The notes beneath the pieces were generated by a model, which was not told the origin of the DNA, made no database searches, and was given only the letters and a program-made list of their open reading frames with translations. DNA of 20,232 nt from a virus, in the IMG/VR virus record IMGVR_UViG_3300045240_000042, positions 1-20,232 of that record, one strand, 5' to 3'. Each line of letters begins with the position of its first letter. Positions within the stretch are counted from its first letter, which is position 1. The position numbers and the translations under genes are program-made. Below, piece after piece: positions 3,728 to 17,995 of this stretch.

Positions 3728-3889
3728 TCACTTCCCCTTCGCTGCGAGCGACTGGAACCGCTTCTTCCCGAGTTTCTTGCGGCCGATCGACGCGGCCAAC
3801 GCCTTCGGGTCCTTGACCTTGGGATCGGACGCGAGCGACTTCGTGAGCGCGCTGAAGCGGGCGCCGCTACCGAGCTTCGGTTGGGCCAT
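3728..3889 (-). CDS. Small basic phage protein downstream of portal
   Basis: The protein has 53 residues, starting at ATG 3889 after AAAGG at 6 bases. It reads MAQPKLGSGARFSALTKSLA, then SDPKVKDPKALAASIGRKK and LGKKRFQSLAAKGK. It is very basic at the C-terminus and helical. Small proteins of this form (PKLGSGxRFxxL..., AAxIGRKKxGKKKFQxLAAKG) recur next to portal and head genes in many phages and metagenomic phage contigs, nearly always as hypothetical proteins. It is tightly packed between portal (24 bases) and the next gene. It could bind DNA or an acidic scaffold. No function is known to me. Confidence 0.72.
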   Translation of the reverse strand: MAQPKLGSGARFSALTKSLASDPKVKDPKALAASIGRKKLGKKRFQSLAAKGK

Positions 3890-3913: not shown

Positions 3914-6016
3914 TTAGCCGGGCGGACGCGCCGGCGGGGAAGCAACCCCGGGCTGTCTCGGCGGGCTCGGCGCGTTCGCGCCCGGAGATCCCCCGCCGGG
4001 CGCGGCAGCTCCCGGCGGGGTTGCGGCTGCCATCTGCATCTGCGCCTCGGCCTGCGCCTGCGCCGCCTGCATGTGCAACTGGCAATGCTGCTCGACGAGC
4101 TGCCAGAGCTGCATGTCCTGCCCGAACATCGCCATGTCCTGCAGGCGGCGGTGGATCGGGAGGTGGACGGCGTGGACGTCGTAGTAGGCGATCGGCATCG
4201 GCACGCCCTGCTGCAGGTAGTGGTTCTCGTACTCGGCCTTCTCGCCGGGGTTCTCCCCCGTCTCGGCGGGGAGCTCGAGCGCCTCGCCGGACTCGAACGA
4301 GTCCTTGTACCACTGGATCCACGCGCCCGGGCTCGACTGCACCGCCGCCGACAGGACCGCCGCGTTCCAGATGTCGGTGACCTTCTGCAGCTCGGCGGCC
4401 GGGGAGCGCGGCTTCGCGACCCCCTTGCCGATCTGGACGATGAAGAACGTCGGCGTCTTGGTCGCGTCGAAGGTGATCGCCTCGAGCCGGTCGTCGTCGC
4501 CGGCGAGGGCGATCTGCTTCTCGCGCCCCCAGTAGGAGCGGATGTCGTAGACGGTGTCCTCGACGAGCTGGCTGATCGCCCGCTTGCGCTCCAGGTAGAT
4601 CGGCTCGCGCTTCGCGGTGTCGGCCTCGTTCAGGAGCGAGAGCTGCGCGTAGGTGGTGACCCCGGGCGGGTTCTCTCCGCGCCTCGGCCCCGCGATACCG
4701 CTCGCGTGCGCCAAGTCCTCCCTGAGGGCTTCGATGTCGCCCTGCATCCAGGGGCCGGGGCCGATCCCGTTCACCGGCTGTGGTGCCCGCTCGGACGGGT
4801 CGATCTCCACGATCTCGTTGATCAGACCCTGCCTGCGTTTCGCCTCCGAGTTCTTCTGCACGATCACGTAAGGCATGTTCCGGTCGATGATCTCGTTCAT
4901 CTGCGTCCGGCGCTTGTTGATGCCCCTTTGGCCGTCCTTGAGCACGTCCATCAGGGCACGGCTCCAGAACCGGCCGGTGACCCTCCACCAGTGGAAGTAC
5001 GCGATCCCCGAGCGGTGCGTCCCGTCGGGCGCCAGGTACGGGAGCGTCTCCTTGTACTCGACCAGCTTGAAGTCGTTGCCGGCGAAGGTGACCTCGCGCC
5101 CCTGCGGGTAGCGCTGCGTCGGGCGCTCGTAGTAGGTGAACAACCAGACGTGGTCGCGGAGCCGGTTCTCCTGCGCGTCCCCCGCCATGTAGGTCGAGGC
5201 GTTCAGGGTCGGGCTCGAGGTCGAGATCCCGAGCGCGGTCGAGATGTCCTTGTCCTCCGTCAGCAGCGCCGCCTGCGGGTAGAGCTCCCTCACGTCGGCG
5301 AGCAGGGTGGGACGGACGATCGCCTCCCAGGCGAAGCTCTTCTCGTGGACGGCGCCGGGGGGGACGATGATGTTGAACGCGCTCAGCGGCTCCCAGCAGA
5401 TCCGGCCGGTGCGGACAGCCTGCATCGTCACCGCCGGGTTCGGGCCGCCGCTCATCAGGTCGGTCGCCTGCCCGATGTCCAGCACCGGCTTGCCGTCGAG
5501 GTGCGGGATGTTCTCGTCCATCACCGGCCCGCTCGTGGGGTCGAAGCGGCAGCGGATCGCGCCGGTGCCGAGATCGACGACGTAGCGGTCGACCTGCGCG
5601 AGCGCGTCGTCGCCGTCCCACTCGTGATCCCACCCGTACGCCAGGGCCCGGTTGAGCTGCTCCTGGAAGTCCTCCGAGACCTGGTCGTCGCGGCGCAGCA
5701 TCAGCTCGGGCCGGTCGTTGTCGGAGCCGAGCTCGCCGAGCGCGGTCAGGCGGTACTCGGTGATCGCGTCGGCGGTGACGAGCTCGCGCCCCCGGTACTT
5801 GGGGTCGAGCTCCTGGATCGTGCGGAGCGTCCGGGTCTGCCCGTGCCAGACGAGCCAGTGGTTCCCGGCCGCGTAGGCGAGGTTGACTTGCCAGCCGGGC
5901 TCGTAGTGGCGGCGCCGGTAGTCGCGGCCCTGGCGGACGCGGTCTCGGAGCGGCTTCACCTGCTCGTCGAGCAGCGACATGGAGCCGTTCTGGTCGACGT
6001 AGGCGAGCGATGTCAT
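3914..6016 (-). CDS. Portal protein
   Basis: The portal forms the dodecameric ring at one head vertex through which the terminase pumps DNA and to which the tail attaches. The protein has 700 residues from ATG 6016 with GGAGG upstream. Features visible are an N-terminal helical region (LLDEQVKPLRDRVRQGRDYRR), the HYEPGWQVNLAYAAGNHW segment typical of large portals, a wing with ICWEPLSAFNIIVPPGA, the repeated WxR pattern around HRSGIAYFHWWRVTGRFW, and a long helix with NKRRTQMNEIIDRNM. The last 90 residues are Gln/Ala-rich (LVEQHCQLHMQAAQAQAEAQ) and then Pro/Gly-rich, like the barrel tail of P22-type portals. Length and pattern favour the long P22-like kind. The order, terminase about 1.6 kb upstream and scaffold downstream, supports the call. 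Confidence 0.88.
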   Translation of the reverse strand: MTSLAYVDQNGSMSLLDEQVKPLRDRVRQGRDYRRRHYEPGWQVNLAYAAGNHWLVWHGQTRTLRTIQELDPKYRGRELVTADAITEYRLTALGELGSDNDRPELMLRRDDQVSEDFQEQLNRALAYGWDHEWDGDDALAQVDRYVVDLGTGAIRCRFDPTSGPVMDENIPHLDGKPVLDIGQATDLMSGGPNPAVTMQAVRTGRICWEPLSAFNIIVPPGAVHEKSFAWEAIVRPTLLADVRELYPQAALLTEDKDISTALGISTSSPTLNASTYMAGDAQENRLRDHVWLFTYYERPTQRYPQGREVTFAGNDFKLVEYKETLPYLAPDGTHRSGIAYFHWWRVTGRFWSRALMDVLKDGQRGINKRRTQMNEIIDRNMPYVIVQKNSEAKRRQGLINEIVEIDPSERAPQPVNGIGPGPWMQGDIEALREDLAHASGIAGPRRGENPPGVTTYAQLSLLNEADTAKREPIYLERKRAISQLVEDTVYDIRSYWGREKQIALAGDDDRLEAITFDATKTPTFFIVQIGKGVAKPRSPAAELQKVTDIWNAAVLSAAVQSSPGAWIQWYKDSFESGEALELPAETGENPGEKAEYENHYLQQGVPMPIAYYDVHAVHLPIHRRLQDMAMFGQDMQLWQLVEQHCQLHMQAAQAQAEAQMQMAAATPPGAAAPGGGSPGANAPSPPRQPGVASPPARPPG

Positions 6017-6036
6017 AGGGCCTCCACTCGCACGAA

Positions 6037-6054
6037 CGCCCGCCTAAACGGGCG
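6037..6054. repeat. Short inverted repeat before the portal gene
   Basis: CGCCCG and CGGGCG form a perfect 6-bp stem around a 6-base loop (CCTAAA). It lies in the 101-base gap between the 76-aa gene and portal, 10 bases upstream of the portal ribosome site. No run of T follows on the minus strand, so a classical intrinsic terminator is not supported. It could be an mRNA processing or stability hairpin at the head of the portal message. Confidence 0.35.
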
Positions 6055-6117
6055 CCCGCGCGCATGTATCACCTACGTCTGATTTGACACCAATCAAAGC
6101 CAGACGAGACGAGAAGT

Positions 6118-13263: not shown

Positions 13264-13536
13264 TCACGTGCAGGGGTTTTCCAGGCCGGCCCCCGCGCCT
13301 GGCTCGGAGGCAGCGTCGGGGGAGTCACGGGCTGCGGCCCCCGCCCGGCCTGGAAGCTTGTAACACCAGTTCGAATCCGCTAGGCGCTTTGGGCACGTCG
13401 TGTAATGCTCATTCCAAGCCTCGAAGTTCCATCCCCAGGGCTTGCCGACTGGGTGCTCTGCACACCCGCAGCACCACTGACCGACGCAAGCTGCGTCGAG
13501 GTACTCGTGCCGCTCGATCCCCGGCTCGTCGCTCAC
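13264..13536 (-). CDS. Cys/Trp-rich protein with element copy 1 in its frame
   Basis: The protein has 90 residues from GTG 13536. The GTG overlaps the stop (GTGA) of the frame through element copy 2. Residues 1-50 look like a zinc-binding unit: YLDAACVGQWCCGCAEHPVG with cysteines at 17, 22, 23 and 25, then HYTTCPKR with a further cysteine. At KRLADSNWCYKLPGR the frame passes through copy 1 of the repeated element, giving the peptide RLADSNW. The last 30 residues are Ala/Gly/Pro-rich and without pattern (AAARDSPDAASEPGAGAG), so the natural end may differ. No family is recognised. Confidence 0.5.
   Translation of the reverse strand: MSDEPGIERHEYLDAACVGQWCCGCAEHPVGKPWGWNFEAWNEHYTTCPKRLADSNWCYKLPGRAGAAARDSPDAASEPGAGAGLENPCT
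13361..13387 (-). repeat. 27-bp element, copy 1
   Basis: The core GTTCGAATCCGCTAGGCG lies at 13369-13386, preceded by TAACACCA. It matches copy 2 at 20 of 21 core positions. It lies within the frame of the 90-aa gene, read as RLADSNW on the minus strand. Confidence 0.7.
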
Positions 13537-13541
13537 GGCCG

Positions 13542-13568
13542 TTTACACCAGTTCGACTCCGCTAACCT
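13542..13568 (+). promoter_or_regulatory. Possible leaderless promoter formed by element copy 2
   Basis: TTTACA (13542-13547) and TAACCT (13563-13568) look like -35 and -10 boxes, though with a short 15-base spacer. TAACCT lies 7 bases before GTG 13576, the distance seen in leaderless actinobacterial mRNAs. Most other copies of the element read TAGGCG where this one has TAACCT, so only this copy carries a good -10 box. The short spacing keeps confidence low. Confidence 0.35.
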
Positions 13569-13569
13569 T
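13543..13569 (-). repeat. 27-bp element, copy 2
   Basis: The core GTTCGACTCCGCTAACC is at 13551-13567. It precedes the plus-strand zinc-ribbon gene and, read on the minus strand, gives RLAESNWCKRP, whose stop overlaps the start of the 90-aa gene. The CGC-to-AGG and CTA-to-TTA changes relative to other copies keep Arg and Leu. Confidence 0.7.
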
Positions 13570-13575
13570 GGCTGT

Positions 13576-13740
13576 GTGGACGATCCGAAGCTCGCGTATC
13601 TCCGCGATGACGCTCCGTACGTCGTGTGCTCCTCATGCGGGCGTAGTAGCTGGGCGGGGCCAGCAGGCTCGACATGCGGGATGCCACAGCCGGACGGCAC
13701 GAAGTGCGAAGGCGTCTTCAGCCTTCTCCGACGCCCATAG
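13576..13740 (+). CDS. Small zinc-ribbon protein on the plus strand, framed by element copies
   Basis: The protein has 54 residues from GTG 13576 (VDDPKLAYLRDDAPYVV). Cysteines are arranged as YVVCSSCGRSSWAG, then STCGMPQPDGTKCEGVF, a typical four-cysteine zinc ribbon (CxxC, then C and C). This meaningful pattern is why I take the plus strand as coding; the minus-strand frame through the same bases is a plain antisense reading. Between the leftmost element (copy 2) and the rightmost (copy 3) there is nothing except this gene; its TAG is the first three bases of copy 3. It is the only plus-strand gene between 12.4 and 18.7 kb. Function unknown; regulation or RNA/DNA binding is typical for such ribbons. 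Confidence 0.6.
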   Translation: MDDPKLAYLRDDAPYVVCSSCGRSSWAGPAGSTCGMPQPDGTKCEGVFSLLRRP

Positions 13741-13764
13741 CACCAATACGAATCCGCTAGGCGC
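13738..13764 (-). repeat. 27-bp element, copy 3
   Basis: It contains CACCAATACGAATCCGCTAG at 13741-13760 followed by GCGC. It holds two stop codons of convergent genes: TAG (13738-13740) of the plus-strand ribbon gene and CTA (13757-13759) of the methyltransferase-like gene on the minus strand. It reads RLADSYW on the minus strand. Confidence 0.68.
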
Positions 13765-14392
13765 ACGCCGCCACCCCAGCCGTGCGGGCCATCTCGAGCA
13801 GGACGTCACGGAACGCCGGCGGGCTAGTCGCGGTCAGACCGTGATGACCGCCGCGATGCTGGCTATTCAGCCACTGCTCCTGTCGACCTTGGAAGCGATC
13901 CCGCCAGGTCGCGATAGTCCAATCCCCACCCCGAACCTCGCGGTTCAAGTCGCGGCCCCAGCGAAGCTCAGGCAGCTCTACTCCATAGGCGTAGAGCCAC
14001 GTCCCTTTCTTGATCGGCAACCCGTAGCGTCCCTGTTCGACGTAGCAGGATGCACCGCCGTCAAGACCGAGCGTCCAGCCTCCGTCCCAGATCGGCTTCG
14101 GCAGCCCGTAGCAGGCCCACGCCGCGCTATAGGCCGGATGCTCGAGGACGCCGCCGTAGGTGCGTACAGCCTTGAGTGCCGAGGCGAAGCAGCCTTCATC
14201 GGCGCCGCGTTTGTAGCCGAACCTCGCCTCGGTGAACCCGGCAAGCATCGACCAGCGGGCGCACGGCGGGTGCGCCACCACCGGCCACGGCCCCGCATAC
14301 AGCCGCGCATCACGCGCCTCGTCCCACACCTCGACGCCGGGGAGGCCCGCGTAGACGCCGTTCGGATCGACGTACAAGGCGGCGACGGTCAC
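13757..14392 (-). CDS. Cytosine-C5-methyltransferase-like phage protein
   Basis: The protein has 211 residues from GTG 14392, which overlaps the stop of the 45-aa gene (GTGA). The pattern belongs to a common phage family: VVAHPPCARWSMLAGF at residues 38-53, DEGCFASALKAVRTYGGVLEHPAYSAAW at 75-103 and YVEQGRYGLPIKKGTWLYAYG later. The HPPC motif at 41-44 resembles motif IV (PC) of DNA cytosine methyltransferases, where Cys attacks the base. The classic motif I for S-adenosylmethionine and a target recognition domain are not visible, and the protein is shorter than full enzymes (300 or more residues). So it could be a degenerate methyltransferase or an unrelated base-modifying enzyme. The Cys is preserved. 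Confidence 0.62.
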   Translation of the reverse strand: MTVAALYVDPNGVYAGLPGVEVWDEARDARLYAGPWPVVAHPPCARWSMLAGFTEARFGYKRGADEGCFASALKAVRTYGGVLEHPAYSAAWACYGLPKPIWDGGWTLGLDGGASCYVEQGRYGLPIKKGTWLYAYGVELPELRWGRDLNREVRGGDWTIATWRDRFQGRQEQWLNSQHRGGHHGLTATSPPAFRDVLLEMARTAGVAACA

Positions 14393-14526
14393 GCTTCCCG
14401 CCTTGAACGCTCGTTCTGTTCCGGAAGGTTCTCGGCGGGGAGGGGTCGGTTTATCTCGGCGTCCCGGTACCCGGTGGCCTCCCCGCCAAGCCGTTTACGC
14501 TCGTTCTGATCCGCTAGGCGGGTCAT
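14389..14526 (-). CDS. 45-aa protein containing two element copies
   Basis: The protein has 45 residues from ATG 14526. The start overlaps the stop of the membrane peptide gene (ATGA) and the stop overlaps the start of the methyltransferase-like gene (GTGA). It has an internal repeat: TRLADQNERKRL near the N-terminus and LPEQNERSRREA at the C-terminus, encoded by element copies 4 and 5. Between them lies an inverted repeat (14434-14487) encoding GGEATGYRDAEINRPLPAEN. It is hydrophilic and helical, without motifs. The fully overlapped context argues that it is translated; its function may be to carry ribosomes over the element. Confidence 0.5.
   Translation of the reverse strand: MTRLADQNERKRLGGEATGYRDAEINRPLPAENLPEQNERSRREA
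14405..14431 (-). repeat. 27-bp element, copy 5 (degenerate)
   Basis: It contains ACGCTCGTTCTG (14407-14418), identical to copy 4, then TTCCGGAAGG in place of ATCCGCTAGG. On the minus strand it reads LPEQNER and leads to a stop that overlaps the start of the methyltransferase-like gene. Confidence 0.55.
14434..14487. repeat. 10-bp inverted repeat between element copies 4 and 5
   Basis: GGCGGGGAGG (14434-14443) and CCTCCCCGCC (14478-14487) pair perfectly with a 34-base loop. The stem lies between two direct element copies, all within the 45-aa gene. On the minus strand it would form an RNA hairpin in front of the methyltransferase-like start. A pairing in single-stranded DNA, as at some recombination sites, is also possible. 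Confidence 0.5.
14495..14521 (-). repeat. 27-bp element, copy 4
   Basis: It reads ACGCTCGTTCTGATCC (14497-14512) followed by GCTAGGCGG. It begins CCGTTTAC just outside, as copy 2 does. It encodes RLADQNER on the minus strand, at the N-terminus of the 45-aa protein. Confidence 0.68.
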
Positions 14527-14603
14527 GAGTAGATCCACCACCAGAACACAGCCGCAGCGCAGACCGCGATAACAACGCCTGCAAGCACCATGAAGCCGAT
14601 CAC
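14523..14603 (-). CDS. 26-aa single-span membrane peptide
   Basis: GTG 14603 overlaps the stop of the acetyltransferase-like gene (GTGA), and the TGA overlaps the ATG of the 45-aa gene (ATGA). The peptide is one hydrophobic helix, MIGFMVLAGVVIAVCAAAVF followed by WWWIYS. The run of three Trp is unusual and would sit at the membrane interface. A small phage membrane peptide might affect lysis or the host membrane, but it lies far from any proven lysis gene except the endolysin 1.3 kb downstream. The two overlaps and the hydrophobic helix support translation. Confidence 0.52.
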   Translation of the reverse strand: MIGFMVLAGVVIAVCAAAVFWWWIYS

Positions 14604-15052
14604 GCCACGACCTCCCAGAGTTGCCGCTGCGAACTCCGGTATGTCTTATTCGCACGGGGGCGAGAAGGCGCCGACCACCCGACACGCGCGGGCCGCTGAG
14701 CAATCACATGGAACCCAGACGCGCGGAGCGACGAGCCGCTCTCATCGGCCTGCGTGTAAGTGATGACGCGCCGGTAGCCGAGCGCGAACGCAGCCCGCTG
14801 GCAGGCGCCATAAAGCATCGAGCAGGCGTTCCGGGAACCGTCCGACGCGACCCGGTTCACCTCGATCGTCATCCCGTCGTCAAACGCTCGAGCGACAGGC
14901 CGACCCGCGATCGCGACGGCGCGTAGAACCCCGTCGCCGTCAGCTGCGCCGACGCAGAACTTCGCGCCGGGAACCGGGCGGTTGTGGCGGTGCCACGCGG
15001 CGCAATGCTCGTTCGCCTGGGCGAGCGTCACCGGGACGAGGTGCAGGCTCAT
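14600..15052 (-). CDS. XF1762-family acetyltransferase-like protein
   Basis: The protein has 150 residues from ATG 15052, with a GAGG site 8 bases upstream. It matches a phage family with GNAT-like architecture: LAQANEHCAAWHRHNRPVPG, AVAIAGRPVARAFDDGMTIE and a very conserved core VNRVASDGSRNACSMLYGAC, then ALGYRRVITYTQADESGSSL followed by GFHVIAQRPARVGWS. The VNR...DG...NACSxLYGA segment and GYxRVITYT are recognisable. Members probably transfer an acetyl or similar group from a CoA donor to an unknown target, perhaps DNA bases or host proteins; the reaction is not established. Upstream, element copy 6 separates it from the integrase. Its stop overlaps the start of the membrane peptide. Confidence 0.74.
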   Translation of the reverse strand: MSLHLVPVTLAQANEHCAAWHRHNRPVPGAKFCVGAADGDGVLRAVAIAGRPVARAFDDGMTIEVNRVASDGSRNACSMLYGACQRAAFALGYRRVITYTQADESGSSLRASGFHVIAQRPARVGWSAPSRPRANKTYRSSQRQLWEVVA

Positions 15053-15178
15053 GCCTTCGGCCTCGAAGCCTGGTTCTGTTCCGCTAGGCGGCTGCGTGCA
15101 GCGGTTTGGCGACTAACCTGGGAAGGTTGGCTCAAACACTTTGACGCCTTTAGATAACCGGTCGGAGCGCGCACGAGA
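15053..15178 (-). other. Integrase-acetyltransferase gap with element copy 6; possible attP region
   Basis: This gap of 126 bases follows the integrase, where attP often lies. It holds a 5-bp inverted repeat AACCT/AGGTT around GGGA (15115-15128) and element copy 6. A 28-codon frame from TTG 15135 runs through the element, ending RLAEQNQASRPKA, with its stop overlapping the ATG at 15052. Its ribosome site is weak (AAAGG 11 bases away). No tRNA-like stretch is present. An attP core cannot be named without the bacterial side. Confidence 0.35.
15065..15091 (-). repeat. 27-bp element, copy 6
   Basis: It contains GGTTCTGTTCCGCTAGGCGG at 15072-15091. It reads RLAEQNQ on the minus strand, leading to a stop that overlaps the start of the acetyltransferase-like gene. 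It is the copy closest to the integrase gene. Confidence 0.68.
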
Positions 15179-16156
15179 CTATGAGCGGGTTCCAGCGTCG
15201 GAGCTGTGGGAACTTTGGATTCGCTCCTCGATTTCGCGCATCGCCTCACGGCGCGCGCCCTTGTTCCGGTGGTGGTAGATGTCGCGAGTCGTGCGGATCG
15301 ACTCGTGCCCCAGCCAGTCCTGCACGTAGCCCTCGTCGATCCCCGCCTCGAGCCAGAAGGTCGCGAACGAATGCCGCGTCGTGTGCGGCTTGCGGTACTC
15401 CACCCCCGCGGCCTCGAGCGCCAGCCGCCACCAGCGAGCGAACGTCGAGGTCGGCACCGGCGTCGCACGCCGCGTCAGATGCCCACCGCCCGGATGGGAG
15501 GCCCAGAAGTGATCGTCCGGGCCGAGCCCGTCGGTCAGGATCAGCTCATGGAAGGCGCCGGCCGCGGCCTGGGTCAGGTCGACCAAGCGCTCCTTGCCGC
15601 CCTTCGCGCCCTCCCGCACCAGCAGCTCCTCCTGGTCGAAGTCGACCCGCCGGACGGTCAGCTCGCGGGCCTCCTGGTTGCGGATCCCGGTCTCGATCAG
15701 GATCGTCATCAGCTCGCCGTCGGGGTACGGCAGCGCCTTGAGCGCGTGCCGCTCGATCTCGGTGAACACGTCGATGTTCCGGTTCGGCTTGTAGCGGATG
15801 TCGGGCAGCCACTCGGCCGGGTTCTCCTTCAACCGGCGGGTCTTGTAGCCCCAGCGGAACCATTGGTTCAGCGGGGCCTTGTAGATGTGGCGTGACTTGT
15901 CGGGCGCCGTCGCGAGCACCGCGAGCAGGTCGGCGTCGGTGAACTCGTCGAACCGCTTCTCCGGGTAGGCCATGAGCAGCCGGGCGGCGTTCCGCTCGTA
16001 CGCCTCGAGGGTCCTCGGGCGCTTGTTCGCGACCTTCATGTACTCGAGCCAGGCGAGCAGGTCGGGCCACGCTTTCGCACTGTGGTGTTTCGCGTTGTAG
16101 ATCATGACGCCGGACGGTAACCGCAAACCGCCGCGGGCAAGCGTGAGCGTGCTCAC
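15179..16156 (-). CDS. int: Tyrosine recombinase (phage integrase)
   Basis: The protein has 325 residues from GTG 16156, which overlaps the stop of the nuclease gene (GTGA). The N-terminal SAM-like domain is at about 28-115 (WPDLLAWLEYMKVANKRPRT, LNQWFRWGYKTRRLKENPAE). The catalytic domain holds every expected residue: Arg159 in LIETGIRNQEAREL, Lys188 in GAKGGKER, His258 and Arg261 in KPHTTRHSF, His284 in WLGHESI, and Tyr294 as nucleophile in RDIYHH. The arm-type N-terminal domain of lambda integrase is short or absent. It should carry out site-specific integration and excision through a DNA-tyrosine bond. It has no integron-type insertion near the third catalytic patch. Co-transcription with the ERF and nuclease genes is unusual. 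Confidence 0.92.
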   Translation of the reverse strand: MSTLTLARGGLRLPSGVMIYNAKHHSAKAWPDLLAWLEYMKVANKRPRTLEAYERNAARLLMAYPEKRFDEFTDADLLAVLATAPDKSRHIYKAPLNQWFRWGYKTRRLKENPAEWLPDIRYKPNRNIDVFTEIERHALKALPYPDGELMTILIETGIRNQEARELTVRRVDFDQEELLVREGAKGGKERLVDLTQAAAGAFHELILTDGLGPDDHFWASHPGGGHLTRRATPVPTSTFARWWRLALEAAGVEYRKPHTTRHSFATFWLEAGIDEGYVQDWLGHESIRTTRDIYHHRNKGARREAMREIEERIQSSHSSDAGTRS

Positions 16157-17262
16157 GCGATCACCTCCGTGGCGCGCTCGAGCTGGGCTTGCAGCCAGGC
16201 GACATGCTCGGCGAGCGGCCGGGACTTCATGTTCGAGTCGATCGCCGCGACCACGGTCGGCAAGGAGCCGCGCTTGTCGCCGATGTCGAGGAGGGTGCGG
16301 GTCAGAGCGAGGCGCTCCTCTTCGAGCGCGGCCGGCGTGGCCGTGACCCCGGCGAGCGTGTCACTGAACCCGGGCAGCGCTAGGTCGGCCACTGGCACGG
16401 AGCCTTCCCACCATGAGCACTCGGGCCGGAACCCGCACATGTCGCAGACCGGCATGTTCCACGCCATCGTCCCGATCGCGTCCGGCCACGGCTCGTCCGG
16501 CCCGCGCTCGTTCCACAACGAGAGCAACGTCCGGGCGCGCGACGCGATGATGCGTTCCGCCTGCCCCGCCATCGAAGCGAGCCACGGCCGCAGCTCGAGC
16601 CCCGGCACCTCCAGCGGCGTGTAGACGGCAGGCCGAGCGGTGCGGGTCGAGATGTGGAGCTCGACCGGCCGGGAGCGGGCGAGCCCGTACCCGAGCACCT
16701 GAAACCTGTAGTGCGGCGGGATCGTCTTCGATGACCCTCGTGCCGTCTTCCGCTCGATCGTGTACGCCTCGGTCGAGACGTCGATGTAACCGATGAACGG
16801 CACCGGCACACCGGGGATGTCGAGCGAGAAGCGCTCCTCGGTCGCGGTCGGCTGCACCCTCGGGGAGACCTGCTGGTGGTAGTGCGCCACGAGCGCGACG
16901 CCCTGATCCTTGATCTTCGCGGGGTCGTCGTCACGCCAGTCGATCTCCGAGGCGCCGCCGTTCTTCTCCACTTCCTCGTCGAGGATCGTCGCGAACGCCT
17001 CCTTCACCTCGGCGACCGGGGCGTCCTCGTGGCTCACGATCTTCTGGTTGAAGTTCGCCTCCGCGTGAGCGCGCCCGTCCGAGGTGCCCCACAGCATCGC
17101 GCCCGAGGGCGCCTCCTTCTTCCCGAGCACGTAGCGCTGCCGGTACTGCTCCGGGCAGCGCTCGAGCATTGACAGCGACGAGGCGCTCAGGTGGTCCGGG
17201 AGCCCGGACGGCCACGCGAGCGTGGGCGCCTCACTCGGGAACAGCTGCTCGAGGATGCTCAC
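16153..17262 (-). CDS. Cas4/RecB-like PD-(D/E)XK exonuclease with Fe-S cysteines
   Basis: The protein has 369 residues from GTG 17262, overlapping the ERF stop (GTGA). The N-terminus has LSASSLSMLERCPEQYRQRY with Cys36, as in the cluster-binding helix of RecB/Cas4 enzymes. The nuclease core includes VPFIGYIDV with Asp161, TIERKTA with Glu170 and Lys172, and HYRFQVLGYG with Gln188. Three more cysteines at 273, 276 and 282 (VCDMCGFRPEC) would complete a four-cysteine [4Fe-4S] site with Cys36. It probably degrades one strand of DNA ends to expose single strands for the ERF protein. The C-terminal 70 residues are an added helical domain (EEERLALTRTLLDIGDKR). No Walker A box is present, so it is not a helicase. 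Confidence 0.84.
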   Translation of the reverse strand: MSILEQLFPSEAPTLAWPSGLPDHLSASSLSMLERCPEQYRQRYVLGKKEAPSGAMLWGTSDGRAHAEANFNQKIVSHEDAPVAEVKEAFATILDEEVEKNGGASEIDWRDDDPAKIKDQGVALVAHYHQQVSPRVQPTATEERFSLDIPGVPVPFIGYIDVSTEAYTIERKTARGSSKTIPPHYRFQVLGYGLARSRPVELHISTRTARPAVYTPLEVPGLELRPWLASMAGQAERIIASRARTLLSLWNERGPDEPWPDAIGTMAWNMPVCDMCGFRPECSWWEGSVPVADLALPGFSDTLAGVTATPAALEEERLALTRTLLDIGDKRGSLPTVVAAIDSNMKSRPLAEHVAWLQAQLERATEVIA

Positions 17263-17858
17263 GACTCCTCCTCGCCAGCGGCCTTCTTCAGCCGGGTGAT
17301 GAACTCGGCGGCCTGCTCCTTCGTCAGCTTCGTCGTGATCTGGGTGCCGTACACCCTCTGCATCCCAGCGCGAAGCTCTGACTCGGTGACGCCGAACTCC
17401 TTCTCCATCTTCGCGATCAGCCGGTGGATGTGGTCCTTCTGCGCCTTTGTCGCGAGCACCTCGGCGGGACCCGTCGAAGCGGCGTTCCCGTCGTCGTCCT
17501 CCTGCTCGCTGATTCCGAGCAAAGCAGCCCAGGCGTAGCGGCGGGCGTAGGTGAGCGCCGCCCCGAGCTTCTGCATGTCGCTGCCCGAGAGAATCAAGGG
17601 CATCGTGTCGGTCGCCGACTCGCCGCTCGAGTGGTAGATCGTGGTCGCGAGCGCCGGGACACCGTCGATGTGGGTGGGTGCCTGCGTGATCGCGAGGCCG
17701 TGCCTGTTCAGGACCGGCCGTGTGCGCGCGATCAGGTTGTCGAGCGTGACGAACTTCGAGTGGAAGTGGGGGTTGACACCGTCGGCTTCGACCTTCGGCA
17801 TCTCGCTCTGGGCGGCGACCAAGGCGGCGGCGAGCGAGCCGGTTCCGTTCTCGCTCAT
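17259..17858 (-). CDS. ERF-family single-strand annealing protein
   Basis: The protein has 199 residues from ATG 17858, which overlaps the stop of the 46-aa gene (ATGA). The N-terminal core fits the ERF recombinase pattern: MPKVEADGVNPHFHSKFVTL at 20-39, RPVLNRHGLAITQAP at 47-61, a TTIYHSSGE strand pair and GAALTYARRYAWAALLGI at 99-116, where YARRY is the most conserved element. An acidic DDDG loop follows. The C-terminus (KAQKDHIHRLIAKMEKEFGV, LTKEQAAEFITRLKKAAG) is a helical domain found in many members. It should pair complementary single strands made by the nuclease encoded next to it, for recombination or genome circularisation. It forms an exonuclease-annealase pair. Confidence 0.86.
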   Translation of the reverse strand: MSENGTGSLAAALVAAQSEMPKVEADGVNPHFHSKFVTLDNLIARTRPVLNRHGLAITQAPTHIDGVPALATTIYHSSGESATDTMPLILSGSDMQKLGAALTYARRYAWAALLGISEQEDDDGNAASTGPAEVLATKAQKDHIHRLIAKMEKEFGVTESELRAGMQRVYGTQITTKLTKEQAAEFITRLKKAAGEEES

Positions 17859-17995
17859 GGCCGGCCTCCGAAGAACCGCTCCCACAGTTCTCGGTCGCGC
17901 TCGTCCTGCTTGCGCTCCCACTCGTGCGCGATCGGGACGGAGCCAACCAGGAGGACCGCCAGGATGAACAGGCCCCAGTACAGCCAGTCGTTCAT
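17855..17995 (-). CDS. Small single-span membrane protein
   Basis: The protein has 46 residues from ATG 17995 with GAGGAGAGAG upstream. The start overlaps the preceding stop (TAATG) and the end overlaps the ERF start (ATGA). It reads MNDWLYWGLFILAVLLVGSV, one hydrophobic helix, then IAHEWERKQDERDRELWERF, a highly charged helix, and FGGRP. Small spans joined to a charged helix are common in phages. Its role next to recombination genes is unknown. Confidence 0.62.
   Translation of the reverse strand: MNDWLYWGLFILAVLLVGSVPIAHEWERKQDERDRELWERFFGGRP

Follow-up and report, generated by a model that had tools for sequence, protein, structure and literature searches.

The linker array of the window

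The stretch of DNA analysed here (the window) is IMG/VR virus record IMGVR_UViG_3300045240_000042, of 20,232 bases; it carries genes for a portal, a large terminase, a RuvC-like protein, an Erf protein and an integrase, and is probably a fragment of a larger genome. Approximately 90 bp past the stop of the integrase gene begins an array of accessory genes interspersed with six related copies of a short element, which is a gene-junction linker of approximately 30-45 nucleotides (nt) between accessory genes of soil and water phages. Linkers are typed by a codon in their right half: Q (CAG), E (GAG) and W or G (TGG or GGG) in one dialect, and P (CCC) in another. These types hold a fixed order along the array, while the intervening genes differ between phages. 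The features of the array in the window, in transcription order, are the following:

15179..16156, minus strand: tyrosine integrase (Pfam PF00589, 4.6e-26; phrog_1)
15049..15094, minus strand: linker copy 1, type Q (profile score 40.4 bits); minicistron ...RLAEQNQASRPKA followed by a stop, its TGA overlapping the ATG of the next gene
14600..15052, minus strand: array gene of the Mom-like DNA modification / XF1762 family (phrog_1384, 1.9e-33; NF045478, 2.3e-56)
14479..14524, minus strand: linker copy 2, type E (45.7 bits); RLADQNERKR..., with an ATG two codons upstream that overlaps the preceding stop
14428..14497, minus strand: GC-rich hairpin between the two E linkers (-35.5 kcal/mol), 97% identical to a segment of the L189 array (oriented coordinates 6021-6084; blastn)
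14389..14434, minus strand: linker copy 3, type E (35.3 bits); NLPEQNERSRREA followed by a stop, its TGA overlapping the GTG start at 14392
13757..14392, minus strand: array gene of 211 amino acids, phrog_12600 (no function assigned), with homologues in the G007 array and beside the G002 array
13722..13767, minus strand: linker copy 4, a variant of type W (28.7 bits); RLADSYWCY..., holding the TAG stop of gene 13757-14392
13576..13740, plus strand: candidate zinc-ribbon open reading frame (54 amino acids) in the slot between copies 4 and 5; cysteine pattern only, no family match
13527..13572, minus strand: linker copy 5, type W (39.1 bits); RLAESNWCKRP followed by a stop, its TGA overlapping the GTG start at 13536
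13345..13390, minus strand: linker copy 6, type W (42.3 bits); RLADSNWCYKLP..., within the 3' part of a small open reading frame
13264..13536, minus strand: small cysteine-containing open reading frame in the last slot; no family match

The initial annotation, made from the sequence of the window, had described six copies of one element at gene boundaries or in short genes, and all six are present where it placed them, in a single orientation and read in a minus-strand frame. The consensus that it proposed is more variable than claimed: CCGCTAGGCG is exact in four copies, but the copy at 13543 carries CCGCTAACC and the one at 14405 carries CCGGAAGG, and the GTTC that was said to lead every copy reads ATAC in the copy at 13738. 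The link to gene boundaries held, given that the copies at 15065, 14405, 13543 and 14495 each touch a minus-strand start codon, that the TAG stop of the preceding gene lies inside copy 13738, and that copy 13361 sits within the 3' part of a small open reading frame. With a 46-nt profile built from the whole family, the six copies score between 28.7 and 45.7 bits and the rest of the window holds no further site at a cut-off of 16 bits; with a similar profile, none of 138,112 shuffled positions reaches 20 bits. Exact matches to the 11-mer CGCCTAGCGGA number four in the record, each inside one of these copies. The six-copy family is far beyond chance. No tRNA gene was found in the window with ARAGORN, and no Rfam family was matched in the window or in five array loci.

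Relatives were gathered by exact-pattern scans of a viral collection, from which 18 contigs were fetched nearly whole together with shorter loci; all are metagenomic fragments of uncertain completeness. Many exact matches to the first patterns were single chance or tRNA matches and were dropped, and the integrase-proximal form of the element (class I, described below) was removed from the copy count. What is left, the class II family, comprises 96 array copies in 26 viral contigs, with one patch and one orientation per contig, and in most array contigs the patch lies directly downstream of a tyrosine integrase. No linker copies were found elsewhere in the array records. The search for the consensus in relatives and in the rest of the genome thus recovered a family, and neither random positions nor a single tandem duplication, the two outcomes named beforehand as refuting the proposal, was found.

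Outside these contigs, the search of a phage collection found no record carrying the linker. A blastn comparison of the array region with known phages gave two weak matches to one gene only, and the linker consensus gave chance-level matches, of which the annotated ones were tRNA-Glu genes. Relatives of the 211-amino-acid gene in other phages (L047-L057) stand without an array. In a search for arrays in bacterial chromosomes, the pattern matched only tRNA-type sequences in Thermoleophilia genomes.

Translation and order of the linkers

On the coding strand, the class II linker reads approximately (A/G)TGACC-SGCCTAGCGGA-YYM-GAAC-NNNNGTNNNMGGC. Commonly its first bases overlap the stop of the gene before it, and the following gene begins at its end or runs through it. 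Coding selection had been suspected from synonymous changes on the minus strand; the frame in question, L(A/P)(D/E)(S/Q)(N/Y), is open in six of the six window copies, and across the family 92 of 93 distinct copies keep the frame L-A/P-D/E-S/Q-N open, while stops interrupt the other two frames in 54 and 50. A column-shuffled null for the same frame gives a mean of 37 copies with stops and a minimum of 26, against the single copy observed. The leucine codon varies (CTA 53, CTT 21, TTA 6, TTG 3, CTC 2, CTG 1), and so do those for arginine (CGG/AGG), aspartate (GAT/GAC) and asparagine (AAC/AAT), with synonymous changes that include the first position (CTA/TTA, CGG/AGG). Judged by its codons, the class II linker is translated. 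Where the right half is of the TGG/GAG/CAG dialect, the linker forms a minicistron of about 11-15 codons; where it is of the CCC dialect, it usually forms the N-terminal end of the protein that follows. The MT-A70 protein of contig G005, for example, has VTLPESNPS-YRTIVADPPWEY as its N-terminal sequence; the G008 and G012 homologues contain the YRTIVADPPW motif but carry no such tag.

The initial annotation had also considered a start-associated element or one that couples translation, and this is supported by the overlaps between linkers and gene ends. An ATG or GTG lies one or two codons upstream in 58 of the 96 copies (5% at random positions), an xTGA overlap with a start is found in 54 (1.6% at random positions), and in 36 the stop of the linker itself overlaps the start that follows (11% expected). 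From these observations it could be argued that the element is purely translational or regulatory, that is, that the minicistron sets the translation of the next gene, and that the mosaicism at the boundaries results from illegitimate recombination and selection. A precedent is found in the SAS (start-associated sequence) and ESAS (extended SAS) elements of cluster K mycobacteriophages, in which a 13-bp GGGATAGGAGCCC-like motif stands 3-7 bp before the ATG, contains the Shine-Dalgarno sequence and is spread over half the genome (PMC3203893). Like the linkers, these are short repeats of one orientation at the starts of small non-structural genes of varied families, in temperate actinophages (PMC3203893); unlike them, the linkers are translated sequences confined to a single patch next to the integrase, with a resemblance to an attachment site and tRNA-Cys and with ordered types. 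The 13-bp SAS motif is absent from the linker consensus. A role in translation alone is quite unlikely: the location at start codons, the xTGA overlaps and the coding constraint speak for it, but it leaves unexplained the resemblance to the attachment site and tRNA-Cys, the confinement beside the integrase, the half-linker exchanges described below and the order of types, and some slots hold opposite-strand genes.

A third suggestion had been a dispersed mobile repeat that codes for a peptide. The peptide coding is real, but with the copies limited to a single patch and orientation there is no need to assume independent mobility. In its strongest form, that of a selfish peptide-coding repeat inserting at gene ends like the Rickettsia palindromic elements, this idea fits a repeat coded in frame and fused to N- or C-termini; it is nevertheless highly improbable, since each genome has a single patch, the copies all point the same way, their types are ordered, and none were found elsewhere in the records.

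The type strings of the arrays are QEWWWW, QEEWG, QEW, QEEWWWW, QWW, QGEW and, in the window, QEEWWW, and those of the other dialect begin QPP. The order Q before E before W or G is inverted once in 52 comparable pairs, a degree of order that no shuffle within contigs reached in 200,000 trials; Q leads in 11 of 11 arrays, where 2.4 would be expected. The central block shows a weaker trend in order (183 of 20,000 shuffles) and position 4 shows none. Similarity within contigs, compared with that between contigs, is raised for the right half only (z 10.1). Site-specific exchange through phage-specific central sequences was rejected as an explanation, given that the identity of the central block is not raised within contigs (z 1.1). 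Identical runs between phages reach 49 nt in linkers of the same type and at most 24 nt in linkers of different types.

The site beside the integrase and tRNA-Cys

In a dozen contigs, and mostly right after the integrase gene, the element occurs in its class I form, GGCGCCTAGCGGATTCGAACCGCTGTTACAGGC or variants of it in the central bases. The 5-bp T-stem palindrome is intact in 12 of 14 class I sites, while all five pairs are kept in just one of the 96 class II copies, in which the right half no longer pairs with the left. A folded attC-like or RNA structure was rejected for the array copies, the T-stem not being kept in class II. A conserved segment of approximately 75 nt often follows class I, and in several contigs AAACCC(G/T)GCA-type repeats, putative arm-type sites, lie on both sides of it.

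When 84,980 genomes of bacteria and archaea were scanned with the linker pattern, the matches were reverse-strand tRNA genes and a few other sequences; the tRNAs were tRNA-Cys in Solirubrobacterales/Thermoleophilia and one tRNA-Glu in rumen bacteria. Within the class of one matched genome, all strict matches are tRNA-Cys-type sequences. The longest match is that of the G008 class I site, identical to a Thermoleophilia tRNA-Cys over 28 nt; in G007, G019, G013, G016, G011 and L192 the central 7 nt of class I no longer match tRNA-Cys. The class II consensus agrees with the antisense of tRNA-Cys (T-arm/acceptor) at 29 of 33 consensus positions, and of five integrase relatives in Thermoleophilia, four adjoin tRNA-Cys or tmRNA genes.

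Class I is probably the phage attachment site (attP) of a tRNA-targeting tyrosine integrase, since it adjoins the integrase, keeps its T-stem, is flanked by repeats and matches tRNA-Cys, and since relatives of the integrase are found next to tRNA-Cys or tmRNA genes. The array copies would then derive from the core of attP, with loss of the symmetric integrase half-site. The possibility that the array contains multiple functional attP sites was rejected, given that this half-site is lost and the central sequences differ. Thermoleophilia are the likely host; the assignment falls short of proof because the tRNA match includes the generic T-loop, and it is supported by a conserved hairpin of these phages, which resembles segments in three genomes of that class. 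No prophage carrying an array was found in the genomes sampled.

Other observations touch on these sites. Among family-A integrase relatives in the presumed host class (L198, L199, L201 and L202), three adjoin tmRNA and one tRNA-Cys. Locus L135 has a tRNA-Cys at 1162 and a second copy of its 3' part (~44 nt) at 3866, 2.7 kb apart, a pair that resembles the trace of an integrated element. The class I site of G004 (oriented coordinates 5950-5997) is chimeric, one half being class II-like and inverted, and reads as the element on both strands. Finally, a segment of approximately 90 bp precedes class I in L192 (7299-7540) and a class II linker in G005 (14746-14846), and looks as if it had moved between linkers.

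Proposed exchange of genes at the linkers

The replacement of genes is best seen among close relatives. The integrases of G004 and G007 are 99.4% identical and their backbones similar, and they share no gene from the left junction to the last linker (blastn). On the left, their similarity stops inside the class I site; on the right, similarity among G004, G007 and G019 resumes at the last linker. These alignments show what has been described for phage boundary (linker) sequences, a conserved junction with unrelated flanks in relatives. The copy at 14405 in the window (G000) and its counterpart in G007 share the right half and the downstream gene, and differ in the left half and the upstream gene, while G004 and G011 agree from the last part of the upstream gene through the left half and middle of the linker and then diverge, their right halves being of different dialects. 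As read from these alignments, the two junctions would place exchange inside the linker core.

Array genes also recur in varied contexts. Besides the window, the 211-amino-acid gene occurs in G007 and next to the array of G002; G004 and G005 have a zinc-ribbon gene in common, G001 and G009 a gene with the sequence VLGALVPV, G007 and L189 a Dam gene, and the window and L187 the Mom-like gene. In a scan of 55 array proteins, those recognised included Dam, MT-A70 and other DNA methyltransferases, Mom-like, ParB-like, DUF1643 and DUF5131 proteins, and most had no recognised family; by their family matches, several array genes look like anti-restriction functions. A minority of slots hold opposite-strand genes. 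The window encodes an Erf-type annealing protein at 17259-17921, in the place of which G004, G007 and G019 have a RecT-like protein.

A GC-rich branched hairpin of approximately 80 nt (about -50 kcal/mol) recurs in six phages with 91-98% identity, at places that do not correspond: window 13273-13361 (minus strand), where it directly follows the last linker, and, in oriented contig coordinates, G007 25562, G009 5592, G004 11336, G019 18008 and G001 32644 (reverse). It has no phage-database or Rfam match, and three bacterial genomes from the presumed host class contain weaker relatives of it (77-90%).

Could the array be a kind of integron? Integron arrays likewise have an integrase, a special adjoining site, and then mostly single-gene units of one orientation with related sites between them, and such units behind an integrase-proximal site are found here in all but a minority of slots. 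On this account the tyrosine integrase of the phage would act on attP (class I) and on the attP-like linkers (class II), and recombination between them would insert and excise cassettes of one gene each. The account draws on the resemblance of the linker core to attP and tRNA-Cys, the uniform orientation, the position of the array next to the integrase and class I, the cassettes common to different contexts and the exchange points within the core; in addition, L192, whose integrase is 91% identical to that of G007, and G006, whose integrase is only a distant relative, have the same first gene behind class I. The difficulties are that the symmetric half-site is missing in 95 of the 96 class II copies, that the central 7 nt often differ both between class I and class II within a phage and among class II copies, that the dialect (CCC or TGG/GAG) does not track the integrase subfamily, and that random capture would not predict a fixed order of types. 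The four integrases tested all score at most 70.6 bits against TIGR02249, with a curated cut-off of 265; there is here no integron-type integrase and no folded attC-like site, and the sites are translated and ordered by type. Integron-like capture is thus possible but doubtful. The original suggestion of cassette recombination sites stands in so far as flanking genes differ among close relatives and similarity begins and ends inside the element; it stands less well for the array copies as integrase sites, since their loss of the half-site and the order of types fit exchange at conserved linkers better than integron-type capture.

The best reading, to which about an even chance is given, is that the linkers are translated, typed by position and derived from the attP core, and that single accessory genes are exchanged at them, most likely by phage homologous recombination. 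The linkers would have arisen by duplication of the attP core (the T-arm/acceptor of tRNA-Cys) and would have lost the symmetric half-site, which would shield the array from cutting by the integrase. When phages co-infect a cell, or a phage meets a prophage, linkers of the same type could serve as short homologies for the single-strand annealing recombinase of the phage (Erf in the window, RecT-like in relatives), and the gene of a single slot would be replaced with operon order, orientation and translational coupling undisturbed. Such a mechanism would explain the conserved frame, the order, the one orientation, the half-linker junctions and the loss of the integrase half-site. A stricter version, in which exchanges occur only between linkers of the same type, by the integrase or a dedicated pathway, so that Q, E and W are ordered incompatible joints and the shared frame keeps inserts translated, is unlikely.

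Several points weigh against exchange at typed linkers. No exchange event was observed, and no near-identical pair of phages differing in one slot was found. The zinc-ribbon gene sits behind an E linker in G004 and a Q linker in G005, and the Dam gene behind a Q linker in G007 and a W linker in L189; genes thus also move from one slot type to another. At the VLGALVPV gene, G001 and G009 differ over the whole linker rather than half of it, so exchange does not always occur at one point. Several contigs share backbone ancestry, which means that the counts are not independent, and genes were called by a simple codon-usage caller. The search patterns fixed parts of the core, so that the conservation of those letters comes partly from the way in which the copies were selected; the tests of frame, overlap and order rest mainly on the letters that the patterns left free. 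The ordered types could also reflect plain descent of the linkers, with the genes replaced by other means. Part of the order may indeed be descent, and linkers that stay put while genes change are themselves the main result.

Two other known systems come close. Phage boundary sequences are likewise short conserved junction sequences, proposed as sites of homologous recombination that lead to modular mosaicism (PMC3029335); the present linkers differ in that they are related to one another and to the attachment site, recur from gene to gene along the array, code for peptide and have types that go with position. In the islands at tRNA 3' ends (the tRNA-Lys repeats of Methylophilaceae, tycheposons), repeated sequences similar to tRNA 3' ends bound variable genes, but those islands lie in bacterial chromosomes and measure 330 bp to 42 kb, while here the units are single phage genes and the copies are diverged and coding (PMC10872708). 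SAS elements, boundary sequences and tRNA-3'-end islands each share part of the present system, and none combines origin from an attachment site, translation and ordered types; no description of such phage arrays was found in the open-access literature.

The mosaicism of phages at gene boundaries is usually put down to illegitimate recombination, and shared boundary sequences are rarely seen. The family described here consists of boundary sequences that are repeated, related, ordered, translated and traceable to an attachment site. These arrays make the old boundary-sequence hypothesis directly testable, and they offer a possible route from an attachment site to a cassette array, which is the question behind the origin of integrons.

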